A stretch of 64,000 nucleotides of DNA from Methanococcoides burtonii DSM 6242 (GCF_000013725.1 NC_007955.1:1643579-1707578); one strand, 5' to 3'. Counted from the first letter of the stretch, positions 20,729 through 43,322 are shown. Program-made: numbers and translations. Notes: generated from the sequence alone by a model not told the origin.

Positions 20729-21445
20729 ATGGACAAAAATAATATATTTGCAATAATTCCAGCCCGCAGCGGCTCTAAAGGTATTGCAGGTAAAAACATA
20801 CGGTCATTGAATGGAAAACCCCTTATTTGCCATACCATCGAAGAAGCAGTTAAATCAAGATACTTAGAAAGAGTTTTCATTTCCACTGATGATCCATTAA
20901 TTGCAAAAATATCTAAGCAATGTGGTGCCAAAATCATAAATCGACCTGCTGAACTTGCCGAAGATGAATCCCCTACAATTAATGCGATTTTTCACGCTAT
21001 AGATACCATAAAAAATGCATATGACACCGAAATTATAATTCTCTTACAACCCACATCTCCATTGAGAAATGCCGCTGATATTGATAAGGCACTCGACATG
21101 TTCATGAAAACGGACTGCGATTCTGTAATAAGCATGTGCAAAGTGGAGCACTCACCATACTGGAGTTTCAAATATGAGGGTGATAAATTTAAATCGCTTT
21201 TCGGGAACGAATGTTTACAAATGCGCAGGCAAGAACTGCCTGAGGTGTACCGACCAAATGGTGCAATATACATAACCACAATCGAAAACCTCTACAAGAA
21301 CAATGGTTTTTATTGCGATAAGATTATTCCATATATCATGCCAGCGGAAAGAAGTGTAGACATTGATGACGAAATCGACTTCAAACTTGCAGAACTGCTA
21401 ATCCAAGAGTATACAAAAAATGCAAAAAATGGATCGAATAAGTGA
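20729..21445 (+). CDS. legF: CMP-legionaminic/CMP-nonulosonic acid synthetase (LegF/NeuA)
   Basis: Cytidylyltransferase that activates a nine-carbon nonulosonic acid with CTP. The 238-residue protein has the N-terminal IPARSGSKGIAGKNIR motif (CTP binding), ISTDDP, LQPTSPLRN near residue 108, and the RPNGAIYITT and SVDIDDEIDF stretches common to NeuA/LegF. Length suits the single-domain form. An SD-like GGAAGGGAAA precedes the ATG. It overlaps legI. Legionaminic rather than sialic or pseudaminic acid is inferred from the accompanying legB and legC. Confidence 0.88.
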   Translation: MDKNNIFAIIPARSGSKGIAGKNIRSLNGKPLICHTIEEAVKSRYLERVFISTDDPLIAKISKQCGAKIINRPAELAEDESPTINAIFHAIDTIKNAYDTEIIILLQPTSPLRNAADIDKALDMFMKTDCDSVISMCKVEHSPYWSFKYEGDKFKSLFGNECLQMRRQELPEVYRPNGAIYITTIENLYKNNGFYCDKIIPYIMPAERSVDIDDEIDFKLAELLIQEYTKNAKNGSNK

Positions 21446-22463
21446 GAATGCCCCCGTATTCATCATTGCTGAAGCCGGCGTGAACCACAACGGCAGCATA
21501 GCACTGGCCAAGCAATTAATCGACGTAGCAGCCAAATCCAACGCAGACGCCGTAAAATTCCAGACCTTTGTCACAGAAGATGTCGTAAGCATTAATACCC
21601 CAAAAGCAGAATACCAAAAGCATACAACTGAGTCCTCCGAATCCCAATTTGAGATGATCAAGAAACTGGAGCTCTCAAAAACAGACCATAAAGAATTGAT
21701 GAAACATGCTGAGCAAAAAAACATCATGTTTCTTTCCACGCCCTTCGATGAGAGAAGCGTTGACCTGCTGGTAGAACTCGGGGTTCCGTTAATAAAGATC
21801 AGTTCTGGTGAGATCACAAACCATCCATTACTGAAATACATATCAAGAAAAGGAATTCCAATCATCCTTTCAACCGGCATGTCCACACTTGAAGAAGTGG
21901 CAGAGGCAGTATCGGTTATAAAAGATGCAGGATGCGAGGATCTTACCCTCCTCCACTGTACATCAAGCTATCCCGCACGTGTGGAGGACTGCAACCTACT
22001 GACCATGGAGACCATGGCAGATGTATTTGATGTCCAGGTTGGTTATTCAGACCACACTTCCGGTATTTGTGTGCCACTGGCTGCTGCAGCCATGGGAGCG
22101 TGTGTGATCGAGAAACATTTCACACTTGATAAGAACCTCACCGGTCCAGATCACATGGCATCATTGGAACCCACTGAACTAGAGGAAATGGTGCGCGGCA
22201 TACGTTTGGTCGAAAAGGCGCGGGGTTCTTCAGTAAAAGCTCCAGTAGAGTCGGAACTTGAGGTGCGGGATATTGTAAGAAGGAGCATCGTGGCAAAGGT
22301 TAACATTCCTGCGGGCACTGTCATCGCTGAGGATCTGCTAGCGTTTAAGCGTCCAGGTGTAGGGATGCCTCCAAAATATCTGGACAGACTAATTGGTAAG
22401 GTACCAATTTCAGAAATTAAAAAAGATTCTTTAATCAATTTCGAAATGTTTGAGACAATATGA
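21429..22463 (+). CDS. legI: Legionaminic/sialic acid synthase (LegI/NeuB)
   Basis: Condenses phosphoenolpyruvate with an N-acetylated six-carbon sugar to form a nonulosonic acid. About 344 residues. The TIM-barrel N-terminal domain has IIAEAGVNHNGS, AVKFQTF, FDERSVDLL, KISSGEITN and HCTSSYPA. GYSDHTSGI and EKHFTLDKN(L)TGPDH form the metal and PEP site. A C-terminal SAF (antifreeze-like) domain follows from about residue 285. ATG 21429 is preferred to ATG 21420. Its stop overlaps the next ATG (ATGA). Confidence 0.92.
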   Translation: MDRISENAPVFIIAEAGVNHNGSIALAKQLIDVAAKSNADAVKFQTFVTEDVVSINTPKAEYQKHTTESSESQFEMIKKLELSKTDHKELMKHAEQKNIMFLSTPFDERSVDLLVELGVPLIKISSGEITNHPLLKYISRKGIPIILSTGMSTLEEVAEAVSVIKDAGCEDLTLLHCTSSYPARVEDCNLLTMETMADVFDVQVGYSDHTSGICVPLAAAAMGACVIEKHFTLDKNLTGPDHMASLEPTELEEMVRGIRLVEKARGSSVKAPVESELEVRDIVRRSIVAKVNIPAGTVIAEDLLAFKRPGVGMPPKYLDRLIGKVPISEIKKDSLINFEMFETI

Positions 22464-23569
22464 AGCGGAAAATTGCAGTGGTCACAGGAACTCGTGCAGA
22501 TTATGGAATTTATTTACCGGTTTTGAAAGCCATCCAGAGATCTTCAAAATTGGATTTATCGCTTATTGTTACAGGAATGCATTTATCTGAAACATTCGGG
22601 CATACTGTGGATGAGATTGAAAAAGATGGATTTAGTATTGATGCTAAAATCCCATTAGGATTGTTAGAAGATAGTGGTGCATCTATGGCTCTTGATGTCG
22701 GAATATGCATATTGGGTCTAACCGATGCTCTTAAAAAAATAAAGCCAGATATACTTCTTGTACTAGGGGATCGTGGAGAGATGCTGGCTACGACTATTGC
22801 AGGAATTTACATGAATATACCTGTGGCACATCTGCATGGCGGTGAGGTTAGTGGAACGGTCGATGAATCGATTAGGCATGCCATAACCAAATTATCACAT
22901 ATCCATTTTCCGGCAACCGAAGAAAGTGCTGAAAGAATACGGAATTTGGGCGAGGACGAGTTTAGAATTTACGTTGTGGGTGCACCTGCACTTGATACAA
23001 TTTTATCGGAAACATTTGTTCCTAAAGAAGAAATGGGACACTTTTTCGATATTGACATAAACAAACCAATTATACTGGTTGTACAGCATCCTGTTACAAC
23101 CGAGGTTGGTGCTGTTGAACGACATATCCGTGAGACCATGGATGCAGTAGTTGAACTTGGTGAACAAACTGTTGTAATTTATCCAAATGCCGATGCAGGT
23201 GGTCGAAAGATAATTGAAACCATTGAACAGTACCGAAATTATGCATTTATCAAGATATTTAAAAATATCAGGCATGTTGATTATTTGAGTTTGATGAGAA
23301 CCACAAATGTAATGGTTGGAAATTCCAGTAGCGGAATAATTGAAGCTCCATCTTTCGGTTTACCGGTAGTTAATATAGGCACTCGTCAAACCGGCAGACA
23401 GAGAGGACAAAATACAATTGATGTGGATTACGACAAAGATGAGATTATAAAGGCAATTAAAGTAGGATTATATGATAAAGATTTTAAACGTAAGGCAAGC
23501 AAGTGTATAAGTCCATATGGAAATGGTCATGCAGGCACCGCAATTGCAGAAATTCTTGAAAGTATATAG
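22460..23569 (+). CDS. legG: Hydrolysing UDP-sugar 2-epimerase (LegG/NeuC); ends with TAG
   Basis: Removes the nucleotide and inverts C2 to give the free hexose used by LegI. The 369-residue GT-B-like protein shows VVTGTRADYGIYLPV at the N-terminus, LGDRGEMLATT, HLHGGEVSGT, QHPVTTE and GNSSSGIIEAPSFGLPVVNIG, all typical of NeuC-type epimerases. Translation starts in an ATGA overlap with legI. The stop is TAG (23567-23569), the only TAG stop among those I read in this window. If read through, 12 further codons follow before a TAA (23606-23608) that abuts the next gene's ribosome site. Confidence 0.9.
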   Translation: MKRKIAVVTGTRADYGIYLPVLKAIQRSSKLDLSLIVTGMHLSETFGHTVDEIEKDGFSIDAKIPLGLLEDSGASMALDVGICILGLTDALKKIKPDILLVLGDRGEMLATTIAGIYMNIPVAHLHGGEVSGTVDESIRHAITKLSHIHFPATEESAERIRNLGEDEFRIYVVGAPALDTILSETFVPKEEMGHFFDIDINKPIILVVQHPVTTEVGAVERHIRETMDAVVELGEQTVVIYPNADAGGRKIIETIEQYRNYAFIKIFKNIRHVDYLSLMRTTNVMVGNSSSGIIEAPSFGLPVVNIGTRQTGRQRGQNTIDVDYDKDEIIKAIKVGLYDKDFKRKASKCISPYGNGHAGTAIAEILESI

Positions 23570-23620
23570 ATAACGCCTGAATTGTTGCAAAAGAAGATTG
23601 TTTATTAACGGAGATGTCAA

Positions 23621-24259
23621 GTGACTCTGAAAACAGTAATAATAGCGGCAAGCGGGCATGGTAAAGTTGTGCTTGATGTATTACAGCAGAATGAAAATAT
23701 AGAAATTACTGGATTTATTGATGATAATTCCAATTTACACGGAAAACGTGTGGATGGAATTCACATCATTGGGGATTTTTCCATGGTTTCGAATATTATT
23801 GATAAGATTGATCGTGGAATTGTTGCAATTGGTGATAATCATATAAGGGCTGAATTTTTCAAAAAAATGCAAGATGTTGGACTTCAGCCCATCACTGCTA
23901 TCCATCCAGATGCAGTCATTGCCAGAACCGCAAAAATAGGCAATGGAACTATTGTTGCTGCTAATGCTGTCATAAATCCAAGTGCTGAAATTGGAGAGAA
24001 TTGTATAATTAATACAGGTGCCATAATTGATCATGACAATTGCATCGCAGATCATGTACATATTTCCCCTGGGGCAAATCTTGCCGGGAATGTGTCTGTC
24101 GGCAAGTATTCCCACATTGGGATTGGTGCTTCAATAATTAATGGAATTATAATAGGTCAAAACGTAACCGTAGGGGCTGGAGCCGTGGTTACCAAAGATG
24201 TGACTGATAATGCAGTCGTTGCAGGCGTGCCTGCAAAAATTATTAAATACAAAAAATAA
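23621..24259 (+). CDS. NeuD/PglD-type sugar O- or N-acetyltransferase
   Basis: Left-handed beta-helix acetyltransferase of 212 residues using acetyl-CoA. It has an N-terminal Rossmann-like domain (VIIAASGHGKVVLDV) and then hexapeptide repeats from about residue 95 (AVIARTAKIGNGTIVAANAV, and so on). NTGAIIDHDN is the usual catalytic His region. It starts with GTG at 23621 behind the good site CGGAGATG. In legionaminic acid pathways this family acetylates the 4-amino sugar (LegH) before LegG acts. It sits 16 bases upstream of legC. Confidence 0.85.
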   Translation: MTLKTVIIAASGHGKVVLDVLQQNENIEITGFIDDNSNLHGKRVDGIHIIGDFSMVSNIIDKIDRGIVAIGDNHIRAEFFKKMQDVGLQPITAIHPDAVIARTAKIGNGTIVAANAVINPSAEIGENCIINTGAIIDHDNCIADHVHISPGANLAGNVSVGKYSHIGIGASIINGIIIGQNVTVGAGAVVTKDVTDNAVVAGVPAKIIKYKK

Positions 24260-31030: not shown

Positions 31031-31747
31031 ATGACAAACTCTGGATTAAATTCTCAAAAATACCAAAAATTAAAGATATTAGCTTTGCTTCCAATGAAGG
31101 GAAATTCACAAAGAGTACCAAATAAAAATATGAAGCTATTTGCAGGTAATCCACTGTACCATGCAATTTTAGATGAACTACTTGAGAGTAAATATATTTC
31201 TAAAATCGTTGTCAATACTGATAGCGAAACAATAAAAAACGATGTTTCTAAAAATTATTATGATTCTGTAATTGTTATAAATAGGCCAAACGAATTATGT
31301 GGGGACTTTGTGTCTATGAACGAACTGATCAAATACGACATAGATCAAGTTGATTATCAATATTTTATACAAACGCATTCAACCAATCCATTACTTAAAG
31401 CACAAACAATTGATGAAGCAATTATAAAATATATAAAGAGTTTGGCCACTTATGATTCCCTATTTTCAGTTACTAAGCTTCAAACACGGTTGTATGATGA
31501 AAATGGGGAAGCAGTAAACCATAATCCAGATGAACTTATCAGAACACAGGATCTGGAACCTCTTTATGAAGAAAATTCTAATATATACATATTCTCAAAG
31601 GAATCTTTCAAAAAAGCCGGTAACAAACGGATAGGTTCACATCCTCAAATGTTCGAAGTAAACAAATTAGAAGCTATAGATATAGACGAACCTGAAGACT
31701 TTGAATTGGCAGAATTATTATACAAAAAAAGAAGATGTTTGCTATGA
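31031..31747 (+). CDS. CMP-ulosonic acid synthetase-like cytidylyltransferase
   Basis: Second NeuA/KdsB-type cytidylyltransferase, 238 residues. LLPMKGNSQRVPNKNMKLF near residue 20 is the CTP-binding motif, followed by NTDSE and the QTHSTNPLL stretch near residue 115. NSNIYIFSKESF and IDIDEPEDFELAELL end the protein in NeuA fashion. It is distinct from legF and shares little beyond the motifs. It leads an eight-gene run of overlapping genes starting with an aldolase. Activation of a keto-deoxy sugar acid with CTP is inferred. A promoter-like TTTATATATATAT lies at about 31000. Confidence 0.82.
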   Translation: MTNSGLNSQKYQKLKILALLPMKGNSQRVPNKNMKLFAGNPLYHAILDELLESKYISKIVVNTDSETIKNDVSKNYYDSVIVINRPNELCGDFVSMNELIKYDIDQVDYQYFIQTHSTNPLLKAQTIDEAIIKYIKSLATYDSLFSVTKLQTRLYDENGEAVNHNPDELIRTQDLEPLYEENSNIYIFSKESFKKAGNKRIGSHPQMFEVNKLEAIDIDEPEDFELAELLYKKRRCLL

Positions 31748-32511
31748 ATCTAAAGACAAAGTTAAGTGATAATAAATTAACAATAGGTTCTTGGATAACA
31801 ATAGGCCACCCAAATGTAGTAGAGATTATGGCAAGTGCAGGATTTGAATGGTTAGTAATCGATATAGAACACACTTCTATTGATCTTACTACTGTCCAAA
31901 GTTTGATATCCACAATCCAAGCAAGTGGTATTAAAGCATTAGTAAGGGTCAGCAAGAATGAAGAGGTCATAATCAAAAAAGTGTTGGATTCCGGTGCAGA
32001 CGGGATTGTAGTTCCCATGATAAAATGTCGTGCCGATGCTTTAAAAGCAATCGATTATTCGAAATATCCTCCAGTAGGCAAACGGGGTGTAGGGCTATAT
32101 AGGGCTCAGAAATATGGAACCAGCTTTGAAGAATACAAAAAGTGGGTTGAAGAAGAACTTGTCATCATTGCCCAGATAGAACATATTGAAGCAGTGAAAA
32201 ACATTGAAGAGATCATAACTACAGACGGAATTGATGGAGTTATCATAGGTCCTTATGATCTGTCAGGGTCTATGGGACATCCTGGTGAGTTCTACCGGAA
32301 GGACGTTGAAAATGCGATTAATGATGTGTTGGAAAGTTGTAAAAGGCACAATTTTCCATCAGGATTCCATGTTATTGAATCAGATCCACACAATCTAATT
32401 CAAAGAATTGAACAAGGATGTACTTTTCTGGCATACAGTTTAGATTTTTTCTTCTTAGGGGATAGTGCACGAGAAGGCATGAAAATAATCAAGGAAGGGA
32501 TTCAGAAATGA
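31744..32511 (+). CDS. HpcH/HpaI-family aldolase
   Basis: Metal-dependent class II aldolase of 255 residues. Family members cleave or form 2-keto-3-deoxy acids from pyruvate and an aldehyde. The general-base pair is in DIEHTSID near residue 43, with ALVRVS, GADGIVVPMI, the metal ligand in AQIEHIEA and GPYDLSGSMG near residue 169. The start is in an ATGA overlap with the cytidylyltransferase; ATG 31735 is upstream but less likely. Coupled to a CMP-transferase and a HAD phosphatase, the enzyme could build a 3-deoxy-2-ulosonic acid from pyruvate. Confidence 0.85.
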   Translation: MNLKTKLSDNKLTIGSWITIGHPNVVEIMASAGFEWLVIDIEHTSIDLTTVQSLISTIQASGIKALVRVSKNEEVIIKKVLDSGADGIVVPMIKCRADALKAIDYSKYPPVGKRGVGLYRAQKYGTSFEEYKKWVEEELVIIAQIEHIEAVKNIEEIITTDGIDGVIIGPYDLSGSMGHPGEFYRKDVENAINDVLESCKRHNFPSGFHVIESDPHNLIQRIEQGCTFLAYSLDFFFLGDSAREGMKIIKEGIQK

Positions 32512-33461
32512 AAGTATTTGTATCTACACATCCATTTTCCTCAACATCTCAAACTCCCTTGGAACTTCTAAAATCAAATGAAATCGATGTCATATTAAAT
32601 TCACACGAAAGAAAAATAACTACACGAGAGCTGGCATCTGATATAGGGAACTCAGATGTATTAATAGCCGGCACTGAAAGAATTACAGAGGAAGTAATAA
32701 AAAATGCACCAAATCTTAAATTGATATCTCGTGTTGGAGTTGGTTTGGATGGAGTGAATTTTGAGCTTTGCAATAAATATGGCATAAAGGTTACTTACAC
32801 TCCTGATGCACCTACTATGGCCGTGGCAGAGTTATGCGTAGGTATCATTCTGGACCTGTCTCGAAAAATATCATACACAGATAGAAATGTAAGAAAAGGT
32901 GTATGGGATAGGTATATGGGAAACCTACTTTATGGCAAGACGGTTGGAATTTTTGGAATGGGACGGATTGGAAAAAGCTTGGTTCATTTGTTGTCTTCTT
33001 TCAATGTAAAATTCTTGGTCAATGACATTACTCCCGACTTCTCTTTTGGACGTTTGTACAATATTGAGTTTGTATCAAAAAATGACGTTTTGGAAAAAAG
33101 TGATATTATTTCCATAAACATACCACTAAAAAAGGATACCTATGATTTTATAACTTTAAATGAAATAAAAAAGATGAGATCTAATGCGATCCTCATTAAT
33201 ACTGCCAGAGGTGGTATTGTAAACGAATCCGATCTTTATGAAGCATTGAAGAACAGCATGATCTCAGGGGCTGGAATCGATGTTTTTGAGGAAGAGCCTT
33301 ATAAGGGTAAATTGACAGAATTGGGTAATTGTGTTTTGACCTGTCATGTGGGTGCTAGTACAATAAATAGCAGGACAGAGATGGAAACACAGGCAGTAGA
33401 GGAAGTAATCCGATTCAAAAATGAACGCCCACTAAAAAATGAGGTGTTTGCAAATGAGTAA
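32508..33461 (+). CDS. D-isomer-specific 2-hydroxyacid dehydrogenase
   Basis: NAD(P)-dependent dehydrogenase of the SerA/phosphoglycerate dehydrogenase family, 317 residues. It has LISRVGVGLDGVN (catalytic Arg region), the Rossmann GIFGMGRIGKSL near residue 146, INTARGGIVNE, the catalytic Glu in DVFEEEP and His in CHVGAST. There is no ACT domain. It overlaps the aldolase by 4 bases (ATGA). In this context it probably reduces or oxidises a 2-keto/2-hydroxy sugar acid instead of making serine; that is an inference from neighbours. Confidence 0.88.
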   Translation: MKVFVSTHPFSSTSQTPLELLKSNEIDVILNSHERKITTRELASDIGNSDVLIAGTERITEEVIKNAPNLKLISRVGVGLDGVNFELCNKYGIKVTYTPDAPTMAVAELCVGIILDLSRKISYTDRNVRKGVWDRYMGNLLYGKTVGIFGMGRIGKSLVHLLSSFNVKFLVNDITPDFSFGRLYNIEFVSKNDVLEKSDIISINIPLKKDTYDFITLNEIKKMRSNAILINTARGGIVNESDLYEALKNSMISGAGIDVFEEEPYKGKLTELGNCVLTCHVGASTINSRTEMETQAVEEVIRFKNERPLKNEVFANE

Positions 33462-34338
33462 AAAAGTACTGGTTTTTGGTGGATGTGGATTCCTAGGTAG
33501 TTATTTAGTCGAACGGCTTTGCATGAAAAAGTATGAGGTTACAGTTGCAGACCTAAACCTATCAAAATACATCAATAAAGATATATTTGTTGAATGTAAT
33601 ATTTTGGACAAAATAAAAGTAGCAGAATTGGTTAAAAATGCTGATATAGTGTACAATTTCGCAGGCATGGCCAATTTAGATAAAGCTGTGGAAGACCCTT
33701 GTGGGACTATCGAGTTAAATGTGATAGGAAATCTTAATATTCTGGATGCTTGCATGCAATCTGGTGTTGAAAGATTCGTGTACGCAAGCAGTGCATATTC
33801 CATGAGCGATAAAGGTTCCTTTTATGGCATCAGCAAATTGACTTCTGAAAAATTGATAGAAGAATATAACGCAAAATACGACTTGAAGTATACTATCATT
33901 AGGTATGGTTCTGTTTATAGTGAAAGAATCTCTGAAAACAATTATATATATAACCTACTAAAAAATGCGATTATATCTGGAAAAATTAAACATTTTGGGG
34001 ATGGAGAAGAAATTAGAGAGTATATTCATGCAAGTGATGTGGCACAACTTTCCGTAGAGATAATCGAATCAAATCAATTTGAGAATGAACATATCATATT
34101 AACTGGCATGGAAAGAATGAAACGAAAAGAGCTTTTTGAAATGATAAATGATATTCTTGGAAATAAGCTCGAAATTGAATTAAATGATAACGGCTATGAA
34201 CATCATTATAAAACTACCCCATATTCATTTACTCCGCGAATAAGTAAAAAACTGATACCAAATCCATATATAGACATTGGACAAGGTATTTTAGAGACTA
34301 TAAAAAGCATTTATGAGAGAGAAGTTGGGGATAAATGA
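33454..34338 (+). CDS. NAD-dependent epimerase/dehydratase (extended SDR)
   Basis: Extended SDR of 294 residues. VFGGCGFLGSYLVERL is the Rossmann motif, YNFAGMANLD the cofactor-binding strand, and ASSAYSMSDKG with FYGISKLTSEK carry the catalytic Ser and Tyr-x3-Lys. IRYGSVYSER replaces the usual RxxNxYGPR, so the substrate loop is unusual. ATG 33454 overlaps the previous stop by 8 bases and is preferred to ATG 33439. A sugar or sugar-acid epimerase role in the ulosonate module is inferred. Confidence 0.85.
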   Translation: MSKKVLVFGGCGFLGSYLVERLCMKKYEVTVADLNLSKYINKDIFVECNILDKIKVAELVKNADIVYNFAGMANLDKAVEDPCGTIELNVIGNLNILDACMQSGVERFVYASSAYSMSDKGSFYGISKLTSEKLIEEYNAKYDLKYTIIRYGSVYSERISENNYIYNLLKNAIISGKIKHFGDGEEIREYIHASDVAQLSVEIIESNQFENEHIILTGMERMKRKELFEMINDILGNKLEIELNDNGYEHHYKTTPYSFTPRISKKLIPNPYIDIGQGILETIKSIYEREVGDK

Positions 34339-35006
34339 TATTTTTGTCTTATATTTTGGAAGAAGATACTCCCACTTACGGAAACATATCGAAATTTTGG
34401 ATTGAAAAAAGATCAAGTATCAAGAATGGTGATATTGCAAACAATAGTTCAATTCACACAACTGCACATGTGGGTACTCATCTAGATATGCCATATCATT
34501 TTTATGAAAATGGTCAAACGGTCATAGATTTCGATCCAAATTTCTGGATATTTAATTATATATTATTTTTTGAAATAGAAACAGAAGATATAATCATTAA
34601 AAATGAGATTCTGGAAATATTGGAAGAAGTGGAGAATAAAGAAAAATATGAGATGTTGATAGTCAAAACAGGTGCATGTAATATTCGCAAAGAACAAAAA
34701 TATTGGGAAGAGAATAAGGGGTTTTCCCCAGAGATTGCAGATTATCTCAAAAAGTATTTTCCAAATATAAGGATATTTGGTTTTGATTCAATTTCAGTAT
34801 CAAGTTTTGTCAACAGAATTGTAGGAAGGGAAGCACATGCACGATTTTTAGACCCATCTGCTCCAATCCTTTTATTAGAAGATATGGATTTGAGACAAAT
34901 CAACAAAAGTACTAGAATTAATAAAGTTATCGTATCCCCATTAAGAATTTCGCAATGTGATGGCTTGCCATGTACTGTTTTTGCAGAGGTCTTAGATGAA
35001 AATTAA
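34335..35006 (+). CDS. Cyclase/kynurenine formamidase-family metal hydrolase
   Basis: Protein of 223 residues in the PF04199 cyclase family, recognised by HVGTHLDMPYHFYENGQT near residue 44, the metal-binding HxGTHxDxPxH motif. IVKTGACNIR and FGFDSISVS are matching later strands. Known members hydrolyse formylkynurenine or act on carbocyclic and lactone substrates. Here a lactonase or deformylase step on a sugar acid is possible. It is coupled to both neighbours (ATGA upstream, 11-base overlap downstream). Confidence 0.82.
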   Translation: MIFLSYILEEDTPTYGNISKFWIEKRSSIKNGDIANNSSIHTTAHVGTHLDMPYHFYENGQTVIDFDPNFWIFNYILFFEIETEDIIIKNEILEILEEVENKEKYEMLIVKTGACNIRKEQKYWEENKGFSPEIADYLKKYFPNIRIFGFDSISVSSFVNRIVGREAHARFLDPSAPILLLEDMDLRQINKSTRINKVIVSPLRISQCDGLPCTVFAEVLDEN

Positions 35007-35631
35007 AAATATTATTTTCGATTTTGATGGAGTGATACTAAACTCCATGGCAATCAAGACAAAAGCATTCAGGGATCTGTTCTCAAGCTATCCTAAAAAT
35101 GTGGTTGATGATTTTATTGAATATCACCTCAAAAACGGTGGAGTTTCCAGATATAGGAAAATTGATTATTTTCACAAGCAGCTATTGGGAATTGACATCT
35201 CCGAAAAAGAGATCTTAGAGTATGCTCAGAAATATTCAAGTTTAACAAGGAATGAGTTGACTGACCCTAATTATTTGATACAAGATACTTTCAATTTTAT
35301 TAAGTGTAATCACAGCAGATATAATATGCACATTGCATCTGGTGCAGATGAAAAAGATTTGATATATATCTGTAATGGTTTGGAAATCAGCAAATATTTC
35401 ATGACCATTAATGGTTCTCCAATAATTAAAAGTGAAATAATAGATACTATATTGACTACATATAAATATAAAAAAGAGGAGACTTGCCTTATTGGTGATT
35501 CAATTAATGATCATGAAGCTGCTAAGAAGAACAGCATCTTATTTTTTGGATATAATTGCAAAGAGTTAGCACACATGAATGAGTATATCAGCACTTTTAA
35601 TGAATTTGATATGGGAGCCAATGATGAATGA
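34996..35631 (+). CDS. HAD-family phosphatase
   Basis: Haloacid-dehalogenase-type phosphohydrolase of 211 residues with a helical cap. Motif I FDFDGVILNS at residues 7-16, motif II in HIASGADEKD near residue 115, a conserved Lys region (INGSPIIKSEI), and the acidic motif LIGDSINDHEAA near residue 167. It resembles phosphoglycolate phosphatase or KdsC-like sugar-acid phosphatases. In this operon dephosphorylation of an ulosonate phosphate before CMP activation is the simplest reading. It overlaps the methyltransferase gene. Confidence 0.87.
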   Translation: MKIKNIIFDFDGVILNSMAIKTKAFRDLFSSYPKNVVDDFIEYHLKNGGVSRYRKIDYFHKQLLGIDISEKEILEYAQKYSSLTRNELTDPNYLIQDTFNFIKCNHSRYNMHIASGADEKDLIYICNGLEISKYFMTINGSPIIKSEIIDTILTTYKYKKEETCLIGDSINDHEAAKKNSILFFGYNCKELAHMNEYISTFNEFDMGANDE

Positions 35632-36595
35632 TGGAATCGAGTTACTTGATATAGATTTATTAGAAGAAAAGAACATACTGAAAGAAATAGATCATTGGTT
35701 AAAAGTGTTTAACTGGATAAATGGTTGGCATTATGACCTGGATATCATCTGGATCGTTAAACAATTAGAAAGCAATGGGATTTTGCCAGGTGCAACAATT
35801 TTGGATACAGGTGCTGGCTATGGAATGACACAATTTATTTTGGCATCCCGTGGATATAATGTAATTAGTATGGATTTTACAAAAAGGAATCTACCGGAAA
35901 AGGCTAAAGGGATATTTGATATTGAAATAATTAAAAATGATCTGGGATCATACACAAGCGAATATATGGAATATATGACATATGGCAAATCTTCCAATGG
36001 CCTTATTAATACATTGAAATCAGTTCCAAAAGCTTTACTCCATCCTATTAAAATAATAAAGTTTATAAAAAAGATGGAACAAAAAATAAGTTCTTATTTC
36101 ATAAACTATACTGAGAAGAAGCAGGATCATACAAAATTTGGAAAGATTGAATTCATAAGAGGTACATTCAATGATATACCATTAGATGATGGAACCATTG
36201 ATGCACTTATATCCATCTCAGCTTTTGAACATAATATATATGAGGATATGCCTAGCAGCGTAAATGAGTTCAACAGGATTTTAAAAGACAAAGGTGTAAT
36301 GTTCGTTACTACGAGTGCTGCAAAAAATAAAGATTGGTATCAAGAATCATCTAAAGGATGGAATTTTACAAAAAAGACATTGTCTGATTGGTTTAATATT
36401 ACTGATAAAAATATTTCTTTTGATTACGACACTGAGCATGATAGGATACGAAACTCTAAAATGTTATCAAACAGATTGGAAGATTATTATAAGGACAAAT
36501 CCAATTTGACTATTCCAAATGGGGATCTAAAAAATATTGAATATATTCCTGTAGGTATTAGGAAGTACAAATACTATGAAAACGATAAGCAGTAA
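35624..36595 (+). CDS. Class I SAM-dependent methyltransferase
   Basis: Methyltransferase of about 323 residues. The SAM site is ILDTGAGYGMTQFILASRG near residue 59, and post-motif ISISAFEHNIYED near residue 190 is the family 11-like acidic loop. A 60-residue basic insert (about 115-180) separates them. The start lies at ATG 35624 or 35621, just after a GGGAG site. An in-frame ATG at 35579 would overlap the HAD gene deeply. Substrate unknown, probably the sugar made by this module. Confidence 0.82.
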   Translation: MNDGIELLDIDLLEEKNILKEIDHWLKVFNWINGWHYDLDIIWIVKQLESNGILPGATILDTGAGYGMTQFILASRGYNVISMDFTKRNLPEKAKGIFDIEIIKNDLGSYTSEYMEYMTYGKSSNGLINTLKSVPKALLHPIKIIKFIKKMEQKISSYFINYTEKKQDHTKFGKIEFIRGTFNDIPLDDGTIDALISISAFEHNIYEDMPSSVNEFNRILKDKGVMFVTTSAAKNKDWYQESSKGWNFTKKTLSDWFNITDKNISFDYDTEHDRIRNSKMLSNRLEDYYKDKSNLTIPNGDLKNIEYIPVGIRKYKYYENDKQ

Positions 36596-38222
36596 TCGTA
36601 TACAATACAAAAAACCACATTTGGATGAATATCTTGGTGATTATAACGATAAATTGGCTACTATATTGGTAAACAATTTCTCTTTGAAATATTTATCCTC
36701 CGCAACTATAAACCGTCTGGAAGCTCAAACTAAATTTTATGAGCTGCTAGAAAAATATATACAAATCTGCGAAATGCTGGATTCGGATAAAGAATTTTGT
36801 GTTAATATCAGTAAAGAGGATCAAATTCTATATAGTATTCTTAAAAAACAATATGGACAAAGAATTACGGGAAAAGGCACTCACTATTTTTTAAAATTGA
36901 AACTTTTGTTTTTACCTAGGCTTATACATTCCTTTTCTACGATTTTGTTTTCCAGTATTGTTAGCAGATTTAAACAAATTGATGAAAAAAAATATGATTC
37001 GATCATAAGAACATATTTTGATTATAGAAGCGTTGATGAGAATGGCCATTTAAAAGACCAGTATTTTGGAGAACTTATCAATGACTTGAAAAAAAGTAGT
37101 AAATTATTAATAGTCTACAAGATGCTAAGATGCAAGGACCTATTAAAGTTTATAAAGATGAAGTCATATGGTTTTGATGCAGTGGCATTAGAGTATTTCT
37201 TAAACATAATCACAATTTCAAGAGCATTTATTTATTTCTTGCAAAGCAATATAGAATTGAAAGATGATTTAAAGTACCGTGGTCACGACTGTAGCAAGTT
37301 ACTACAATTATTCCTTAATGAAGACTATTTGACACTTAAGGGACTGGGCGTGTTCATTGAAAAGGAAGTTGCTATTAAAATGTTCGATCTTCATCCTCGA
37401 AATATATTGCTTCCTTATGAAAATCAAACATGGGAGAAAATATATCCATATATGAAAAATATCCTGCATCAGGATGCTAAAATCACAGGCTATCAGCACA
37501 CAGGAGTCTCATATAAATTATTGAATTATTTCCCTAGTAAAGTAGAAAAACATTTGTTTGTTTTCCCAGATAAACTTGTGACTGTAGGAGCTATTATTAA
37601 GAACTTATTACAGGAACAAGCTAATTATCCATCTGAAATTGTCGTGGGTGGTGCATTAAGATTTAGTAAGCATTTTTCAAAATATGGAGATATTGAAGTA
37701 AAGTGCCCTGATAAGGTCATAAATAAAAAAATAGTGTATGCATTTTCATATGATATTACAAAATACACAAAAATAATAGATATGTTGACAGATATTTTTG
37801 GAAATACAGAAATTGTTGTATTATTAAAATTCCATCCCGACTATGTTGAAGAAGATATTTTGAAATCATTTAAAGATCGGCTTCCAAACAATTTTGTAGC
37901 TTCCGGCACTAAGAGTTGGATTGAAATATTTCAAATCGTGGATTTGGTTCTGTATGATGACAACTCTATAGCTTTTGAAGGAATTATCCATGGAGTTAAA
38001 ACGTTCTCGATTGCTGATACGGAACAGATATATGACATCACTCGAAAATTTGGTTTTGATTCATGGAAAGAAAATGTAAATGAAAAGGACTTAATTGTTA
38101 TTAAAGATCAATTAATCAATGGTAATTTTGATAAAATGTTTGATGTAACTGACATCCATTCATATATCAATATGTATTTTACAAAATATAATACTGAAGA
38201 TCATTTTAATACATTTTTATGA
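36576..38222 (+). CDS. Large surface-carbohydrate protein, possible transferase
   Basis: I do not recognise a characterised family for these 548 residues. The C-terminal half reads like a GT-B glycosyltransferase: ITGYQHTGVSYKLLNYFP near residue 305, EIVVGGALRF, then VVLLKFHPDYVEEDI near residue 425, and YDDNSIAFEGIIHGVKTF near residue 470. It resembles uncharacterised surface-carbohydrate proteins found beside aldolase and CMP-transferase genes in O-antigen loci. No signal peptide. It is very AT-rich: the line 36601-36660 has 17 G/C of 60. It is the last gene of the coupled run and is the best candidate for transferring the new sugar. Confidence 0.72.
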   Translation: MKTISSNRIQYKKPHLDEYLGDYNDKLATILVNNFSLKYLSSATINRLEAQTKFYELLEKYIQICEMLDSDKEFCVNISKEDQILYSILKKQYGQRITGKGTHYFLKLKLLFLPRLIHSFSTILFSSIVSRFKQIDEKKYDSIIRTYFDYRSVDENGHLKDQYFGELINDLKKSSKLLIVYKMLRCKDLLKFIKMKSYGFDAVALEYFLNIITISRAFIYFLQSNIELKDDLKYRGHDCSKLLQLFLNEDYLTLKGLGVFIEKEVAIKMFDLHPRNILLPYENQTWEKIYPYMKNILHQDAKITGYQHTGVSYKLLNYFPSKVEKHLFVFPDKLVTVGAIIKNLLQEQANYPSEIVVGGALRFSKHFSKYGDIEVKCPDKVINKKIVYAFSYDITKYTKIIDMLTDIFGNTEIVVLLKFHPDYVEEDILKSFKDRLPNNFVASGTKSWIEIFQIVDLVLYDDNSIAFEGIIHGVKTFSIADTEQIYDITRKFGFDSWKENVNEKDLIVIKDQLINGNFDKMFDVTDIHSYINMYFTKYNTEDHFNTFL

Positions 38223-38364: not shown

Positions 38365-39828
38365 ATGCATAAGCAAATTAAAAAATGCCTTTTAATGATG
38401 CCTCCTGCCACCACATCTAAAGATAATATAGATATTAACCCTTTACCCCCAATTGGATTAGGATATATTGCATCTGTTATTGAAAAATTGGGAGTTGAAG
38501 TAAAAATCATAGATTGTCTTATGGAAGGGTGGAATCAACGAGAAGAAATTGGAGATGGGTTGATTAGAATTGGACTTTCAGAAAATCAAATTCGAGATAT
38601 AATTTCTGATTATCAACCAGACCTAGTATGCGTTAACAACCAATTTTCGAAACAATATGAAAATGCTCACCTCATATACAGACTTGTTAAAGAAGTCGAT
38701 AGCAACATTATAACACAAGCCGGCGGGGGACACCCTTCGGTCATGCCGAAAGAAACTTTACAAGATCAAAATCTCGATTTTGTAGTTCTTGGTGAAGGAG
38801 AAATTGTAGTCGAATGTTTTTTGAGATGTCTTCTTAACAAAGATGATGATTATAGCAAAATTGATGGATTGGGTTACAAAATAGATGGACAAATAATCAT
38901 TAATCCTAAAACAACTTATATAGAAGACCTCGATTCATTACAATTTCCTGCACTTCACCTGATGAATCTAGAACATTATTTTGGACTTGATATGTCACAT
39001 GGAAAAAGACATTCCAAAAGGTTCTACCCAATTATCACATCCAGAGGTTGTCCTGCTAAATGTACATTTTGTACAGCATATCGAGTATGGGGGAGAAAAT
39101 ATCGACATCGATCACCTGAAAACGTTATTGAAGAGATGAAATACGTTAAGGAAAAATACAATATAGAAGAATTATTGATAGAAGACGATAACTTCACAGC
39201 AAATCCAAAGAGAGCAGAAAAAATTTGTGACCTGATGATAGAGAATAAATTCAATTTCAAATGGGACACACCCAATGGAATTGCTGCCTTTGCTTTAAAT
39301 GAAAAACTCATACGTAAAATGAAAAACGCTGGATGTTACAAAATTAACATTGCTGTTGAAAGTGGAAATCAAAACACATTGAACAATATAATTAAAAAAC
39401 CATTGAAATTGGAAAAGGTGGAAGAAATTGTAAATATTTGTCGCAAAGTAGACATCGATTTTGGAATCTTCCTGATCCTAGGAATGCCAGGAGATAATTT
39501 AGAAGCTATGTGGGATAATTACAAATTCGCTAGAAAAATAAAAGTGTTCGATCCATTTATTTCTGTTGCAACTCCATATCCAGGAAGTGAAATATTTGAT
39601 ATTTGTGAAAGTAAAGGTTACTTTTCAGAAGAATTCAAACTAGAGAATCTTTTCATTAGAAGCTTCCCAATAAGAACTGAACAATGGACACCTGAAGATA
39701 TTCAAAAACTAATGAAAAAAGGATATATATATCTCAAATTTTATCAGTTTTTAGATAATCCTTTTAACTTCACACGACTTTTTGCAGGGTTTGTTTTAGA
39801 AAAAGCAAAGAGAACGCTCAATTTGTAA
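38365..39828 (+). CDS. B12-binding radical SAM protein
   Basis: Enzyme of 487 residues with an N-terminal cobalamin-binding domain (LLMMPPATTS to about residue 150, including GGGHPSVMP) and a radical SAM domain. The 4Fe-4S motif is in CPAKCTFCTAYRVWG near residue 231 (CxxxCxxC), followed by EDDNFTANPKRAEK. The C-terminus is helical. Such enzymes methylate unactivated carbons or rearrange skeletons. It has its own promoter-like TCTTATAAATAG at about 38308, and a leader of about 30 bases follows. Placement in the glycan locus suggests C-methylation of a sugar or lipid; the substrate is unknown. Confidence 0.87.
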   Translation: MHKQIKKCLLMMPPATTSKDNIDINPLPPIGLGYIASVIEKLGVEVKIIDCLMEGWNQREEIGDGLIRIGLSENQIRDIISDYQPDLVCVNNQFSKQYENAHLIYRLVKEVDSNIITQAGGGHPSVMPKETLQDQNLDFVVLGEGEIVVECFLRCLLNKDDDYSKIDGLGYKIDGQIIINPKTTYIEDLDSLQFPALHLMNLEHYFGLDMSHGKRHSKRFYPIITSRGCPAKCTFCTAYRVWGRKYRHRSPENVIEEMKYVKEKYNIEELLIEDDNFTANPKRAEKICDLMIENKFNFKWDTPNGIAAFALNEKLIRKMKNAGCYKINIAVESGNQNTLNNIIKKPLKLEKVEEIVNICRKVDIDFGIFLILGMPGDNLEAMWDNYKFARKIKVFDPFISVATPYPGSEIFDICESKGYFSEEFKLENLFIRSFPIRTEQWTPEDIQKLMKKGYIYLKFYQFLDNPFNFTRLFAGFVLEKAKRTLNL

Positions 39829-39876: not shown

Positions 39877-40992
39877 ATGCAAAATGTTCTTTTTAAAAAT
39901 GCCTATAACGGAAAAAAAGTTATTGTAACCGGCAACACGGGTTTTAAAGGCTCATGGCTTAGCATTTGGCTTTCCCTCCTTGGTGCAAAAGTGTATGGAT
40001 TATCAAATGATATCCCAAGCAAGCCATCCCACTTTGAAACTGCATCCTTGGATGAACATATAATCCATAATGAAATCGACATACGTTGCCTATATGATGT
40101 GAGAGAACTTATCAACGAGATCGAACCGGATTTCGTATTCCACCTTGCTGCCCAGCCAATAGTTCGTGCTTCATATAATGATCCGGTTGAAACAATTGAA
40201 ACTAATGTCATTGGGACAATGAATATCCTGGAAGCATTGCGACTTTCGAATCATCCATGCATTGCTATAATGATAACCAGCGATAAATGTTATGATAATG
40301 TTGAATGGGTGTGGGGATATCGGGAAACTGACCCATTGGGTGGAGAAGACCCATATAGTGCTTCAAAAGGTGCTGCAGAACTAATCATAAAAACATATGC
40401 AAGATCTTTTTTCGACAAACCTAATAGTAACGTAAAGATAGCATCCGTTAGAGCAGGCAATGTAATTGGAGGCGGAGATTGGGCAAAGGATCGTATTGTT
40501 CCAGATTGTATCAGAGCATGGGGTGTAAAAGAAAAAGTACAGATTCGAAGCCCAAATGCAACGCGCCCATGGCAACATGTATTAGAACCACTTAGCGGAT
40601 ACCTTTATTTGGGTCAGAAACTGAATGAAGATAAATCATTGAATGGAGAACCATTTAATTTTGGACCAGCCACTAACCAAAATTATACCGTTGCTGAATT
40701 GATAAGTAAAATGCAAGAATACTGGGAAGATGCAGAGATACAGATAGATACTGGTAATGCATCTAAACAAAAGGAAGCTAACCTTCTGAAATTATGTTGC
40801 GATAAAGCACTCCATGTTTTGGGATGGCAGGCAACTCTCGACTTTGAAAAAACAGTCAAGTTTACTGTTGATTGGTATCGCTCATACTATACAACAGACA
40901 CAGATATATTCGAATTAAGTTGTCAACAGATATCAGATTATGTTAATTTCGCTATGGAACAAGGACAGAGTTGGGTGAAACACAATGATTGA
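39877..40992 (+). CDS. rfbG: CDP-glucose 4,6-dehydratase
   Basis: Extended SDR of 371 residues that converts CDP-glucose to CDP-4-keto-6-deoxyglucose. It has VTGNTGFKGSWLSIWL (the CDP-glucose-specific start), FHLAAQPIVRASYNDP, TSDKCYDN and the catalytic YSASKGAAELI. VRAGNVIGGGDWAKDRIVPD and RPWQHVLEPLSGYL are also characteristic. Its partner rfbF lies two genes downstream. It overlaps the next gene by 8 bases. Confidence 0.94.
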   Translation: MQNVLFKNAYNGKKVIVTGNTGFKGSWLSIWLSLLGAKVYGLSNDIPSKPSHFETASLDEHIIHNEIDIRCLYDVRELINEIEPDFVFHLAAQPIVRASYNDPVETIETNVIGTMNILEALRLSNHPCIAIMITSDKCYDNVEWVWGYRETDPLGGEDPYSASKGAAELIIKTYARSFFDKPNSNVKIASVRAGNVIGGGDWAKDRIVPDCIRAWGVKEKVQIRSPNATRPWQHVLEPLSGYLYLGQKLNEDKSLNGEPFNFGPATNQNYTVAELISKMQEYWEDAEIQIDTGNASKQKEANLLKLCCDKALHVLGWQATLDFEKTVKFTVDWYRSYYTTDTDIFELSCQQISDYVNFAMEQGQSWVKHND

Positions 40993-41422
40993 AGGGGTTA
41001 TTGTAAACCCAGTAAAGATTATCACTGGTGAAAATGGCAACGTAATGCATGCTTTAAAAGCAGAAGATGATTCATATCATGGATTTGGAGAAGCATATTT
41101 TTCAACTGTCAACTGTGGAGCAATAAAAGCATGGAAACGTCATCATGAGATGACCTTGAATATTGTAGTACCACAGGGAGAAATAATGTTCGTACTCTAT
41201 GACGATAGGCTTGAATCCAACACTCGTGGACAAATAATGGAAATCAAGCTGTCTACAGAGAACTACCAGAGGTTGACAATTCCACCAATGGTATGGATGG
41301 GGTTCAAAGGTATGGGAAAAGATGCGAATATCCTTATAAACATTGCAAACATTCAACATGATCCGAATGAGAGCGACCATCTGGACTCCCACAAAAACAA
41401 TATAAATTATGATTGGGGATGA
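40985..41422 (+). CDS. RmlC-like cupin, 4-keto-6-deoxy sugar epimerase candidate
   Basis: Small cupin of 145 residues related to dTDP-4-dehydrorhamnose 3,5-epimerase. GAIKAWKRHHEMT carries the equivalent of the catalytic His and substrate-binding residues, and LTIPPMVWMGFKGM the second cupin strand. It is shorter than RmlC (about 180). Position between rfbG and rfbF indicates that it acts on the CDP-linked 4-keto sugar, either as an epimerase or a ketoisomerase. Confidence 0.8.
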   Translation: MIEGVIVNPVKIITGENGNVMHALKAEDDSYHGFGEAYFSTVNCGAIKAWKRHHEMTLNIVVPQGEIMFVLYDDRLESNTRGQIMEIKLSTENYQRLTIPPMVWMGFKGMGKDANILINIANIQHDPNESDHLDSHKNNINYDWG

Positions 41423-41430
41423 TCAAGAAC

Positions 41431-42204
41431 ATGAAAACCGTAATTTTAGCAGGTGGATTGGGTACTCGTTTAGCTGAATATACCGATATCAGACCTAAAC
41501 CAATGGTAGAGATTGGAGGACAACCTATCCTTTGGCATATTATGAACCTTTATGCCCATTATGGAAACAAGGATTTCTTTGTTGCATTGGGATATAAAGG
41601 GGAAGTTATCAAAGAGTATTTCCTAAATTACTATTCTCTGAAATCAGATTTTACAGTAAACCTAGGAAATGGTGATGTGGATTGTCTTGAGAAAAAGACT
41701 GTAGACTGGAATGTCACATTAGTCGATACGGGTTTAAATTCAATGACCGGTGGTAGAATAAAACGATTAAAAGAATACATTGAAGATGATACTTTTATGG
41801 TAACATATGGAGATGGGGTTTCCAACGTTAATATCGAAAAACTTATAGAATTCCATAAAACCCATGGAAAAATGGCTACCGTTACAGCTGTACACCCTTC
41901 TGCAAGATTTGGAGAACTTGTTATCTCTGACAAAAACGAAGTCATTTCATTCAAAGAAAAACCACAGACAAACCAAGGATGGATAAATGGAGGGTTCTTT
42001 GTATTTGAACCCGAGTTTTTGGATTATATTGGATCAGATTCTACTGTTCTTGAAGAAGATCCACTCGAGACCATTGCAAAGAAAGGGGAATTAATGTCAT
42101 ACCGTCACGATGGATTCTGGCAGTGCATGGATACTGTACGGGATAGAAATGTACTGGAAGAGCTCTGGCAAAGAGAAAATGCCCCATGGAAGGTTTGGAA
42201 GTAA
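41431..42204 (+). CDS. rfbF: Glucose-1-phosphate cytidylyltransferase
   Basis: Makes CDP-glucose from CTP and glucose 1-phosphate. 257 residues, exactly the family length, starting MKTVILAGGLGTRL with EYTDIRPKPMVEIGGQPILWHIM. NLGNGDVD and VTYGDGVSNVNI are the cytidylyltransferase-specific stretches, and GWINGGFFVFEPEFLDY follows. ATG 41431 is preceded by GGGGATGATC; ATG 41413 and 41419 are upstream alternatives. The stop overlaps the next start (TAATG). Confidence 0.94.
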   Translation: MKTVILAGGLGTRLAEYTDIRPKPMVEIGGQPILWHIMNLYAHYGNKDFFVALGYKGEVIKEYFLNYYSLKSDFTVNLGNGDVDCLEKKTVDWNVTLVDTGLNSMTGGRIKRLKEYIEDDTFMVTYGDGVSNVNIEKLIEFHKTHGKMATVTAVHPSARFGELVISDKNEVISFKEKPQTNQGWINGGFFVFEPEFLDYIGSDSTVLEEDPLETIAKKGELMSYRHDGFWQCMDTVRDRNVLEELWQRENAPWKVWK

Positions 42205-43322
42205 TGTCAGACAATACTATCCGCCTGTCAAGATCAGTTATTGGGGAAGAAGAAAAGAAAGCTGTTCTTGATGTACTGGATAGGCAATATCTGGGAATGG
42301 GGCAGGATGTCCTATATTTTGAACAAGAGCTTGCCACTTATTTTGCCAGAGAGGCTGTATGCGTCAATACTGGCACTGCTGCCCTTCATCTTGCCCTTCA
42401 GGCACTTGGAGTAGGTCCCGGAGATGAGGTGCTTGTACAATCTTTGACATACGTTGCATCCTTTCAGGCAATATCTGCCACAGGGGCACGCCCTGTGCCC
42501 TGTGACATAGACCCCGACACGATAACCCTAAATGTTGACGATGCTAAAAAACGAATAACAGAACATACTCGTGTTGTAATGCCTGTTCATTATGCCAGTA
42601 GTGTAGGACCACTGGATGAGATATATGAATTTGCCCAGGATAATGACCTGCGAGTAGTGGAAGATGCTGCTCAAGCTTTTGGAACATACTACAACGATAA
42701 GAAAGTTGGCAGCTTCGGAGACATTGCATGTTTTAGTTTTGACGGTATCAAAAATATCACATCTGGAGAAGGCGGAGCTGTTGTTACCGATGATAAAGAA
42801 GTATTGCAAAGGGTAAAGGATGCGCGGCTTCTTGGAGTGGAAAAAGATACTGAGAAAAGATACAGTGGAGATAGAAGCTGGGATTTTGATGTGAGTATGC
42901 AAGGATGGCGATATCACATGAGCAATGTGATGGCTGCTATTGGTATTGAACAATTTAAAAAGTTCCCGATATTTGCAGAAAAAAGAAAGGAACTATTGAA
43001 GCGTTATCAAAGCAACCTTGCAAATATAAATTCGATCGAACTTCTTAAACAGGATGCAAACCAAATTGTACCCCATATTTTTGTGATCAAGCTCAAAAAC
43101 TATGACCGTAATACTCTAAGGAAAATGCTCGAGGATGTTGGAATCCCTACGGGGATCCATTACAAACCAAATCACAAACTGAGCTATTACGATACTGGAG
43201 TTGAACTTCCATGTACAGATACAGTTGCAAAAGAAATATTAACACTACCATTGCACCCCGAACTTCAGATTTCCGATGTAGATCACATTTGTGAAATGTT
43301 GAAACAATGCTTGGGGATATAA
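42204..43322 (+). CDS. DegT/DnrJ/EryC1 sugar aminotransferase of the CDP module
   Basis: PLP-dependent sugar aminotransferase of 372 residues. It has NTGTAALHLALQALGVG, DIDPDTITLN, EDAAQAFGT and the PLP lysine in FSFDGIKNITSGEGGA near residue 183. The presence of this Lys argues against the related dehydratase RfbH, which replaces it with His and carries a 2Fe-2S cluster. The gene is fused to rfbF by a TAATG overlap. An amino group added to CDP-4-keto-6-deoxy- or 3-keto-6-deoxy-hexose is the likely reaction. Confidence 0.88.
   Translation: MSDNTIRLSRSVIGEEEKKAVLDVLDRQYLGMGQDVLYFEQELATYFAREAVCVNTGTAALHLALQALGVGPGDEVLVQSLTYVASFQAISATGARPVPCDIDPDTITLNVDDAKKRITEHTRVVMPVHYASSVGPLDEIYEFAQDNDLRVVEDAAQAFGTYYNDKKVGSFGDIACFSFDGIKNITSGEGGAVVTDDKEVLQRVKDARLLGVEKDTEKRYSGDRSWDFDVSMQGWRYHMSNVMAAIGIEQFKKFPIFAEKRKELLKRYQSNLANINSIELLKQDANQIVPHIFVIKLKNYDRNTLRKMLEDVGIPTGIHYKPNHKLSYYDTGVELPCTDTVAKEILTLPLHPELQISDVDHICEMLKQCLGI

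Follow-up and report, generated by a model that had tools for sequence, protein, structure and literature searches.

The gene run and its setting

The DNA analysed here, referred to as the window, is a 64,000-nucleotide stretch from Methanococcoides burtonii DSM 6242, within which eight open reading frames (ORFs) occupy positions 31031-38222 of the plus strand (Table 1). Every adjacent pair overlaps, with successive gaps of -13, -4, -23, -4, -11, -53 and -20 nt, and improved starts for ALD (ATG at 31744), SDR (33454) and MT (35621 or 35624) reduce several of these overlaps to only 4-11 nt. The first-pass annotation had described eight overlapping ORFs and named their families; both points hold, and a Pfam search backs seven of the eight family names (CTP_transf_3, HpcH_HpaI, 2-Hacid_dh, an Epimerase-type SDR, Cyclase, HAD_2 and a class I methyltransferase). 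Dozens of unrelated genomes share this set, so the association of these genes is more than chance. The module is real and apparently undescribed, and it appears to be a variant of the pathways leading to ulosonic acids activated with cytidine monophosphate (CMP).

The run lies inside a surface-glycan island that also holds AglB, a NeuABCD set and CDP-glucose genes. The G+C content is about 30-36% across the 26-40 kb region of the window and about 36-45% elsewhere in it.

Table 1. Genes of the module and other features of the surrounding glycan island (window coordinates)
Feature	Position	Strand	Assignment
AglB	12235..14709
NeuABCD set	20729..24259		complete NeuA-NeuB-NeuC-NeuD
NeuA	20729..21445		the window's own NeuA
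NeuB	21420..22463		single NeuB of the genome
CT	31031..31747	+	NeuA/PseF-type CMP-acidic-sugar cytidylyltransferase; PF02348
ALD	31744..32511 (ORF listed from 31735)	+	HpcH/HpaI-type class II pyruvate aldolase; PF03328
HADH	32508..33461	+	D-2-hydroxyacid dehydrogenase, phosphoglycerate dehydrogenase/glyoxylate reductase-like; PF02826/PF00389
SDR	33454..34338 (ORF listed from 33439)	+	extended SDR, distinct module-specific subfamily; PF01370
CYC	34335..35006	+	cyclase/kynurenine-formamidase-like metallohydrolase, proposed (phospho)lactonase; PF04199
HAD	34996..35631	+	class IA phosphatase; PF13419
MT	35621..36595 (ORF listed from 35579)	+	accessory class I S-adenosylmethionine-dependent methyltransferase; PF08241, 50.4 bits
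TRF	36576..38222	+	GT-B-like putative glycosyltransferase; no Pfam match
B12-binding radical SAM protein	38365..39828
CDP-deoxysugar genes	39877..43322		CDP-glucose 4,6-dehydratase and glucose-1-phosphate cytidylyltransferase

Distribution and origin of the module

A scan of genome contigs yielded 80 loci, from Campylobacterota, Desulfobacteraceae, Deferribacterota, Bacteroidota, Balneolota, Bdellovibrionota, Nitrosomonas and others. The core of CT, ALD, HADH, SDR, CYC and HAD is found in more than 12 phyla, often in the order seen in the window. That exact order, CT-ALD-HADH-SDR-CYC-HAD, is present in Sulfurovum, Desulfobacteraceae and Deferribacterota loci; the first-pass annotation's picture of an archaeal peculiarity gives way to that of a widespread and mainly bacterial module. 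Among the 55 loci with long flanks, CT accompanies ALD in 54, HADH in 51, a lactonase in 45, SDR in 44 and HAD in 42, and all five occur in 33, these counts describing the company of ALD and not the reverse, since the scanned loci were picked by ALD similarity. In 50 of the 55 the distance from CT to ALD is no more than 2 kb, and in 35 it is no more than 50 bp. In other archaeal families, covered by a search of the phylum and by fetched regions, ALD adjoins HADH, SDR and CT, and HAD and CYC are present in most cases. On mobile elements, an Acuticoccus plasmid carries ALD-CT-HADH-HAD-SDR and is the sole plasmid record with the SDR, and no close SDR or CT was found in the phage record collection searched.

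Campylobacterota copies match the window ALD with up to 79% identity, against only 52-53% for those of two genomes from the archaeon's own genus. On the ALD tree, the copies nearest to it are those of Campylobacterota, and on the SDR tree the window falls near Campylobacterota and Bacteroidota. This pattern is consistent with transfer of the window copy from bacteria, from a Campylobacterota-like source.

The cytidylyltransferase and the aldolase

CT matches PF02348 with 100.6 bits, well over the gathering cut-off of 22.6. Its score against the PseF equivalog (101.3 bits) stays under the cut-off of 205.7, and the KdsB models give at most 34.9 bits against cut-offs of 155-281, so the window CT is not a KdsB. 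Its DID motif (D217-I218-D219) and K32-N33 are also present in the window's own NeuA. In about half of the related loci, the position is taken by a KdsB-like cytidylyltransferase, one representative of which exceeds the KdsB-subfamily cut-off. Many Bacteroidota loci also have, near CT, a YhcH/NanQ-type protein that is related to N-acetylneuraminate anomerase and scores below that model's cut-off; such neighbours suggest a cyclic keto-acid substrate.

ALD matches PF03328 (124.3 bits, cut-off 25) and remains under every named equivalog cut-off, with 197.8 of 368.8 bits for HpaI, 168.3 of 406.75 for GarL and 140 of 441 for RhmA. Residues H46, R71, E149 and D175 are kept in 86 of 86 module aldolases. 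If their roles are those of known HpaI-family enzymes, which we take to be the case (E149 and D175 as metal ligands, H46 as base, and R71), all metal and pyruvate-site residues are present and the class II pyruvate-aldolase site is, as judged from the sequence, intact. Y174 is likewise invariant in module aldolases, whereas five catabolic HpaI/RhmA/GarL relatives have A or S; this conservation is partly by construction, since loci were found with the pattern GPYDLS, and it holds in ten aldolases found otherwise. On the ALD tree, the module aldolases form a group of their own, apart from the HpaI-type catabolic aldolases (support 93, not starred).

The HADH-SDR-CYC-HAD half

HADH belongs to the phosphoglycerate dehydrogenase/PdxB-like family, with R234 and H280 invariant and E263 conserved at 90% or more. 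In SDR, S117, Y129 and K133 are invariant, and a search of the phylum separates module members, at 382 bits or more, from a next best match of 175. HAD keeps the DxDGV nucleophile motif (D9, D11) together with invariant K145 and D168, and CYC carries the motif HxGTHxDxPxHF. Across 62 loci, CYC (37 loci) and a 6-phosphogluconolactonase-family protein (25 loci) fill the same slot and never occur together; the one representative of the latter that was tested exceeds the TIGR01198 cut-off. According to the SDR tree, the exchange happened at least twice, and this parsimony count of 2 is the only account taken of the kinship of the loci. Because the two proteins share a slot, exclude each other and have been exchanged at least twice, CYC is a candidate (phospho)lactonase, which suggests that the module includes a lactone step.

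A further arrangement is seen in five loci (L040, L054, L064, L076 and L046), where a Gfo/Idh oxidoreductase, a classical SDR and an AroB-related cyclase (TIGR04425) replace the extended SDR and HAD; some of these loci also carry a GmhA-like isomerase.

A proposed route to a CMP-ulosonate

In the pathways described to our knowledge, CMP-3-deoxy-D-manno-octulosonate (CMP-Kdo) and the CMP-nonulosonates are made by phosphoenolpyruvate (PEP)-dependent synthases. We consider it about an even bet (probability of roughly 0.5) that the run is a horizontally acquired, largely bacterial pathway to a CMP-ulosonate destined for a surface glycan, in which the aldolase would replace the PEP-dependent synthase and an oxidative arm would be added. 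We infer its substrates, product, acceptor and order of steps, as well as the building block delivered by the oxidative arm, as follows. SDR would convert a sugar or sugar phosphate to a lactone, which CYC, or the 6-phosphogluconolactonase of other loci, would open; HADH would then oxidise the resulting 2-hydroxy acid and HAD would strip the phosphate, so that the oxidative arm would deliver a small building block derived from a sugar. To this block, the metal-dependent ALD would join pyruvate by a C-C bond, giving a 2-keto(-3-deoxy) acid with no PEP-dependent synthase, and CT would produce the CMP-sugar. MT may add a methyl group to the CMP-sugar or to a sugar next to it, and the transfer would fall to the GT-B-like TRF. 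A more specific Ruff-type version, running from glucose-6-phosphate through 6-phosphogluconolactone, 6-phosphogluconate and a 2-keto acid to D-arabinose(-5-phosphate), with a pyruvate aldol to a Kdo-like acid, fits most module genes but has no decarboxylase, and we regard it as quite unlikely.

The proposed route shares with the CMP-Kdo pathway (KdsD-KdsA-KdsC-KdsB) the 2-keto-3-deoxy acid logic, the HAD phosphatase and the activation with CMP, and differs from it by an HpcH/HpaI aldolase in the place of KdsA and by the additional HADH, SDR and lactonase. The CMP-nonulosonate pathways (NeuB/PseI/LegI with NeuA/PseF) supply the closest counterparts of the window CT, PseF/NeuA, and a NeuABCD set lies in the same glycan island, whereas the module itself is devoid of a PEP-dependent synthase. 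ALD has the fold family and the metal and pyruvate-site residues of the catabolic aldolases HpaI, GarL and RhmA/YfaU, and is set apart from them by its place on the tree, its Y174, its sub-equivalog scores and its biosynthetic neighbours. Finally, the lactonase slot recalls the 6-phosphogluconolactonase of the pentose phosphate pathway, yet the family protein that fills it belongs to a glycan operon and is accompanied by an extended SDR.

More broadly, CMP-ulosonic acids may be made across bacteria and archaea by a pyruvate aldolase together with an arm that oxidises sugars, in place of PEP-dependent synthases, with the ALD-CT part present in viral contigs and the module kept family-wide by Nitrosomonadaceae, a generalisation that we put forward tentatively. 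If true, an aldolase route in many phyla would constitute a second logic besides the PEP-dependent synthases, and would predict a missing sugar acid in the surface glycans of archaea, Campylobacterota, Bacteroidota and ammonia oxidisers.

Weighing the aldolase route against its alternatives

The aldolase logic, first put forward in the first-pass annotation, is favoured by the core shared across more than 12 phyla, by the conservation of the ALD-CT pair in cellular and viral contigs, by carriers devoid of KdsA and NeuB, and by the intact catalytic residues of ALD. The mutual exclusion of CYC and 6-phosphogluconolactonase and the YhcH/NanQ-type neighbours of CT count in favour of the route as a whole. 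Several observations weigh against it, starting with the NeuB encoded by the window genome itself. Searches with Pfam and family models find no NeuB/PseI or any other PEP-dependent synthase among the eight genes, as had been claimed, but the claim does not extend to the window, where a complete NeuABCD set with its own cytidylyltransferase lies about 7 kb upstream of the run. The NCBIfam cut-offs are passed by NeuB (TIGR03569, 483.6 bits, cut-off 399.65), NeuC and NeuD, and the archaeon may thus make a sialic-acid-like sugar. That this pathway feeds CT, ALD being an unrelated aldolase, is nevertheless very improbable: the NeuB gene overlaps its own NeuA, and the relatives G032 and G100 have CT and ALD with neither NeuB nor KdsA. 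Among ten module archaea, G000 included, KdsA (TIGR01362) was found in none and NeuB was not found in four, which lack KdsA as well; two of these four are close relatives (99% completeness) carrying CT and ALD.

A second opposing point comes from five archaeal genomes that carry the HADH-SDR-HAD-CYC half with no ALD of the module subfamily, and ALD is therefore not obligatory for this part. Four of the five have a different cytidylyltransferase, in three cases directly by a classical SDR, and the fifth has a KdsB-like one. These genomes would fit an aldolase-free oxidative route, in which SDR, lactonase, HADH and HAD start from an aldose phosphate and yield a 2-keto-aldonic acid that CT activates directly, ALD being an optional variant or an upstream source of precursor. 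The family to which HADH belongs also speaks for such a route, as does a fusion of a degenerate-looking cytidylyltransferase-like domain to HADH (L094:13109-14887). However, HADH occurs with ALD in 51 of the 55 long-flank loci and ALD and CT are the closest neighbours, so that ALD would be left with no clear role in most loci. In viral contigs (L117-L152), moreover, 32 of 51 ALD loci also have a cytidylyltransferase, and in 16 of 51 the two genes lie on the same strand within 60 bp, abutting or overlapping; SDR and HADH are absent beside most of the viral CT-ALD pairs. We therefore consider an aldolase-free route unlikely.

The two halves can exist apart and, when together, usually share one CT. 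It has to be asked whether they are two units placed side by side, with ALD and CT supplying one CMP-ulosonate and HADH-SDR-CYC-HAD building or modifying a different component of the glycan that receives it. Several genes indeed separate the halves in some Campylobacterota (L021, L025, L030, L031 and L038), and in L094 each half has its own cytidylyltransferase. Against this stand the single gene run that unites them in the window, some Campylobacterota, Desulfobacteraceae, Deferribacterota and Nitrosomonas, and the presence of a single module CT in most loci, an argument for a common CMP-sugar; we regard the two-unit explanation as unlikely.

Two further points weigh against the aldolase route as a whole. 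The SDR is nearer to NDP-sugar epimerases/dehydratases than to the sugar-1-dehydrogenase model that it matched, which makes lactone formation by this enzyme uncertain, and no description of the module was found in the literature searched for HpcH/HpaI aldolases linked to cytidylyltransferases, O-antigens, capsules or ulosonic acids.

The Nitrosomonadaceae speak partly for and partly against the aldolase route. In its favour, 78 of 81 genomes carry the module SDR, nearly always as a single copy, the KdsA family model finds no match in any of the 81, where NeuB was not searched for, and two tested Nitrosomonas genomes have no KdsB besides that of the module. On the opposing side, the WaaA family model finds no match in ten tested genomes of the family, and for N. 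europaea lpxK is reported as the sole one present among the nine Kdo2-lipid A genes (PMC3087551). Loss of lipopolysaccharide, as indicated by these absences, partly explains the missing KdsA; it does not explain why a KdsB-type enzyme is kept beside the aldolase. Since WaaA is also missing, the product in this family may not be Kdo, and the idea that Nitrosomonas proves an alternative route to Kdo was given up in view of the absent WaaA and of the lipid A genes reported missing. The KdsA and WaaA results rely on family models, because a chimeric E. coli KdsA-KdsD-KdsC-WaaA query proved unreliable over the Nitrosomonadaceae: it gave no KdsD or WaaA match in any genome and only distant ones (27-31%) in the KdsA part, and no conclusion on KdsD is taken from it. 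If the aldolase route is correct, it offers a starting point for establishing what decorates the envelope of this family.

The eighth protein and neighbouring genes

Homologues of TRF number 16 in the fetched loci and are placed after HAD/CYC in other module loci. One of them scores 62.5 bits, below the cut-off, against TIGR04326 (surface carbohydrate biosynthesis protein). The AlphaFold model of TRF is of low confidence (mean pLDDT 57.2, pTM 0.58), and its Foldseek matches to GT-B folds have low TM-scores.

Downstream of the run, the top match of the B12-binding radical SAM protein is a P-methyltransferase model (307.7 bits, cut-off 575), and proteins of this type are found repeatedly near the module in archaea. 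Next to it, the CDP-glucose 4,6-dehydratase and the glucose-1-phosphate cytidylyltransferase both exceed their cut-offs and lie by an aminotransferase, an arrangement that corresponds to a CDP-deoxysugar route.

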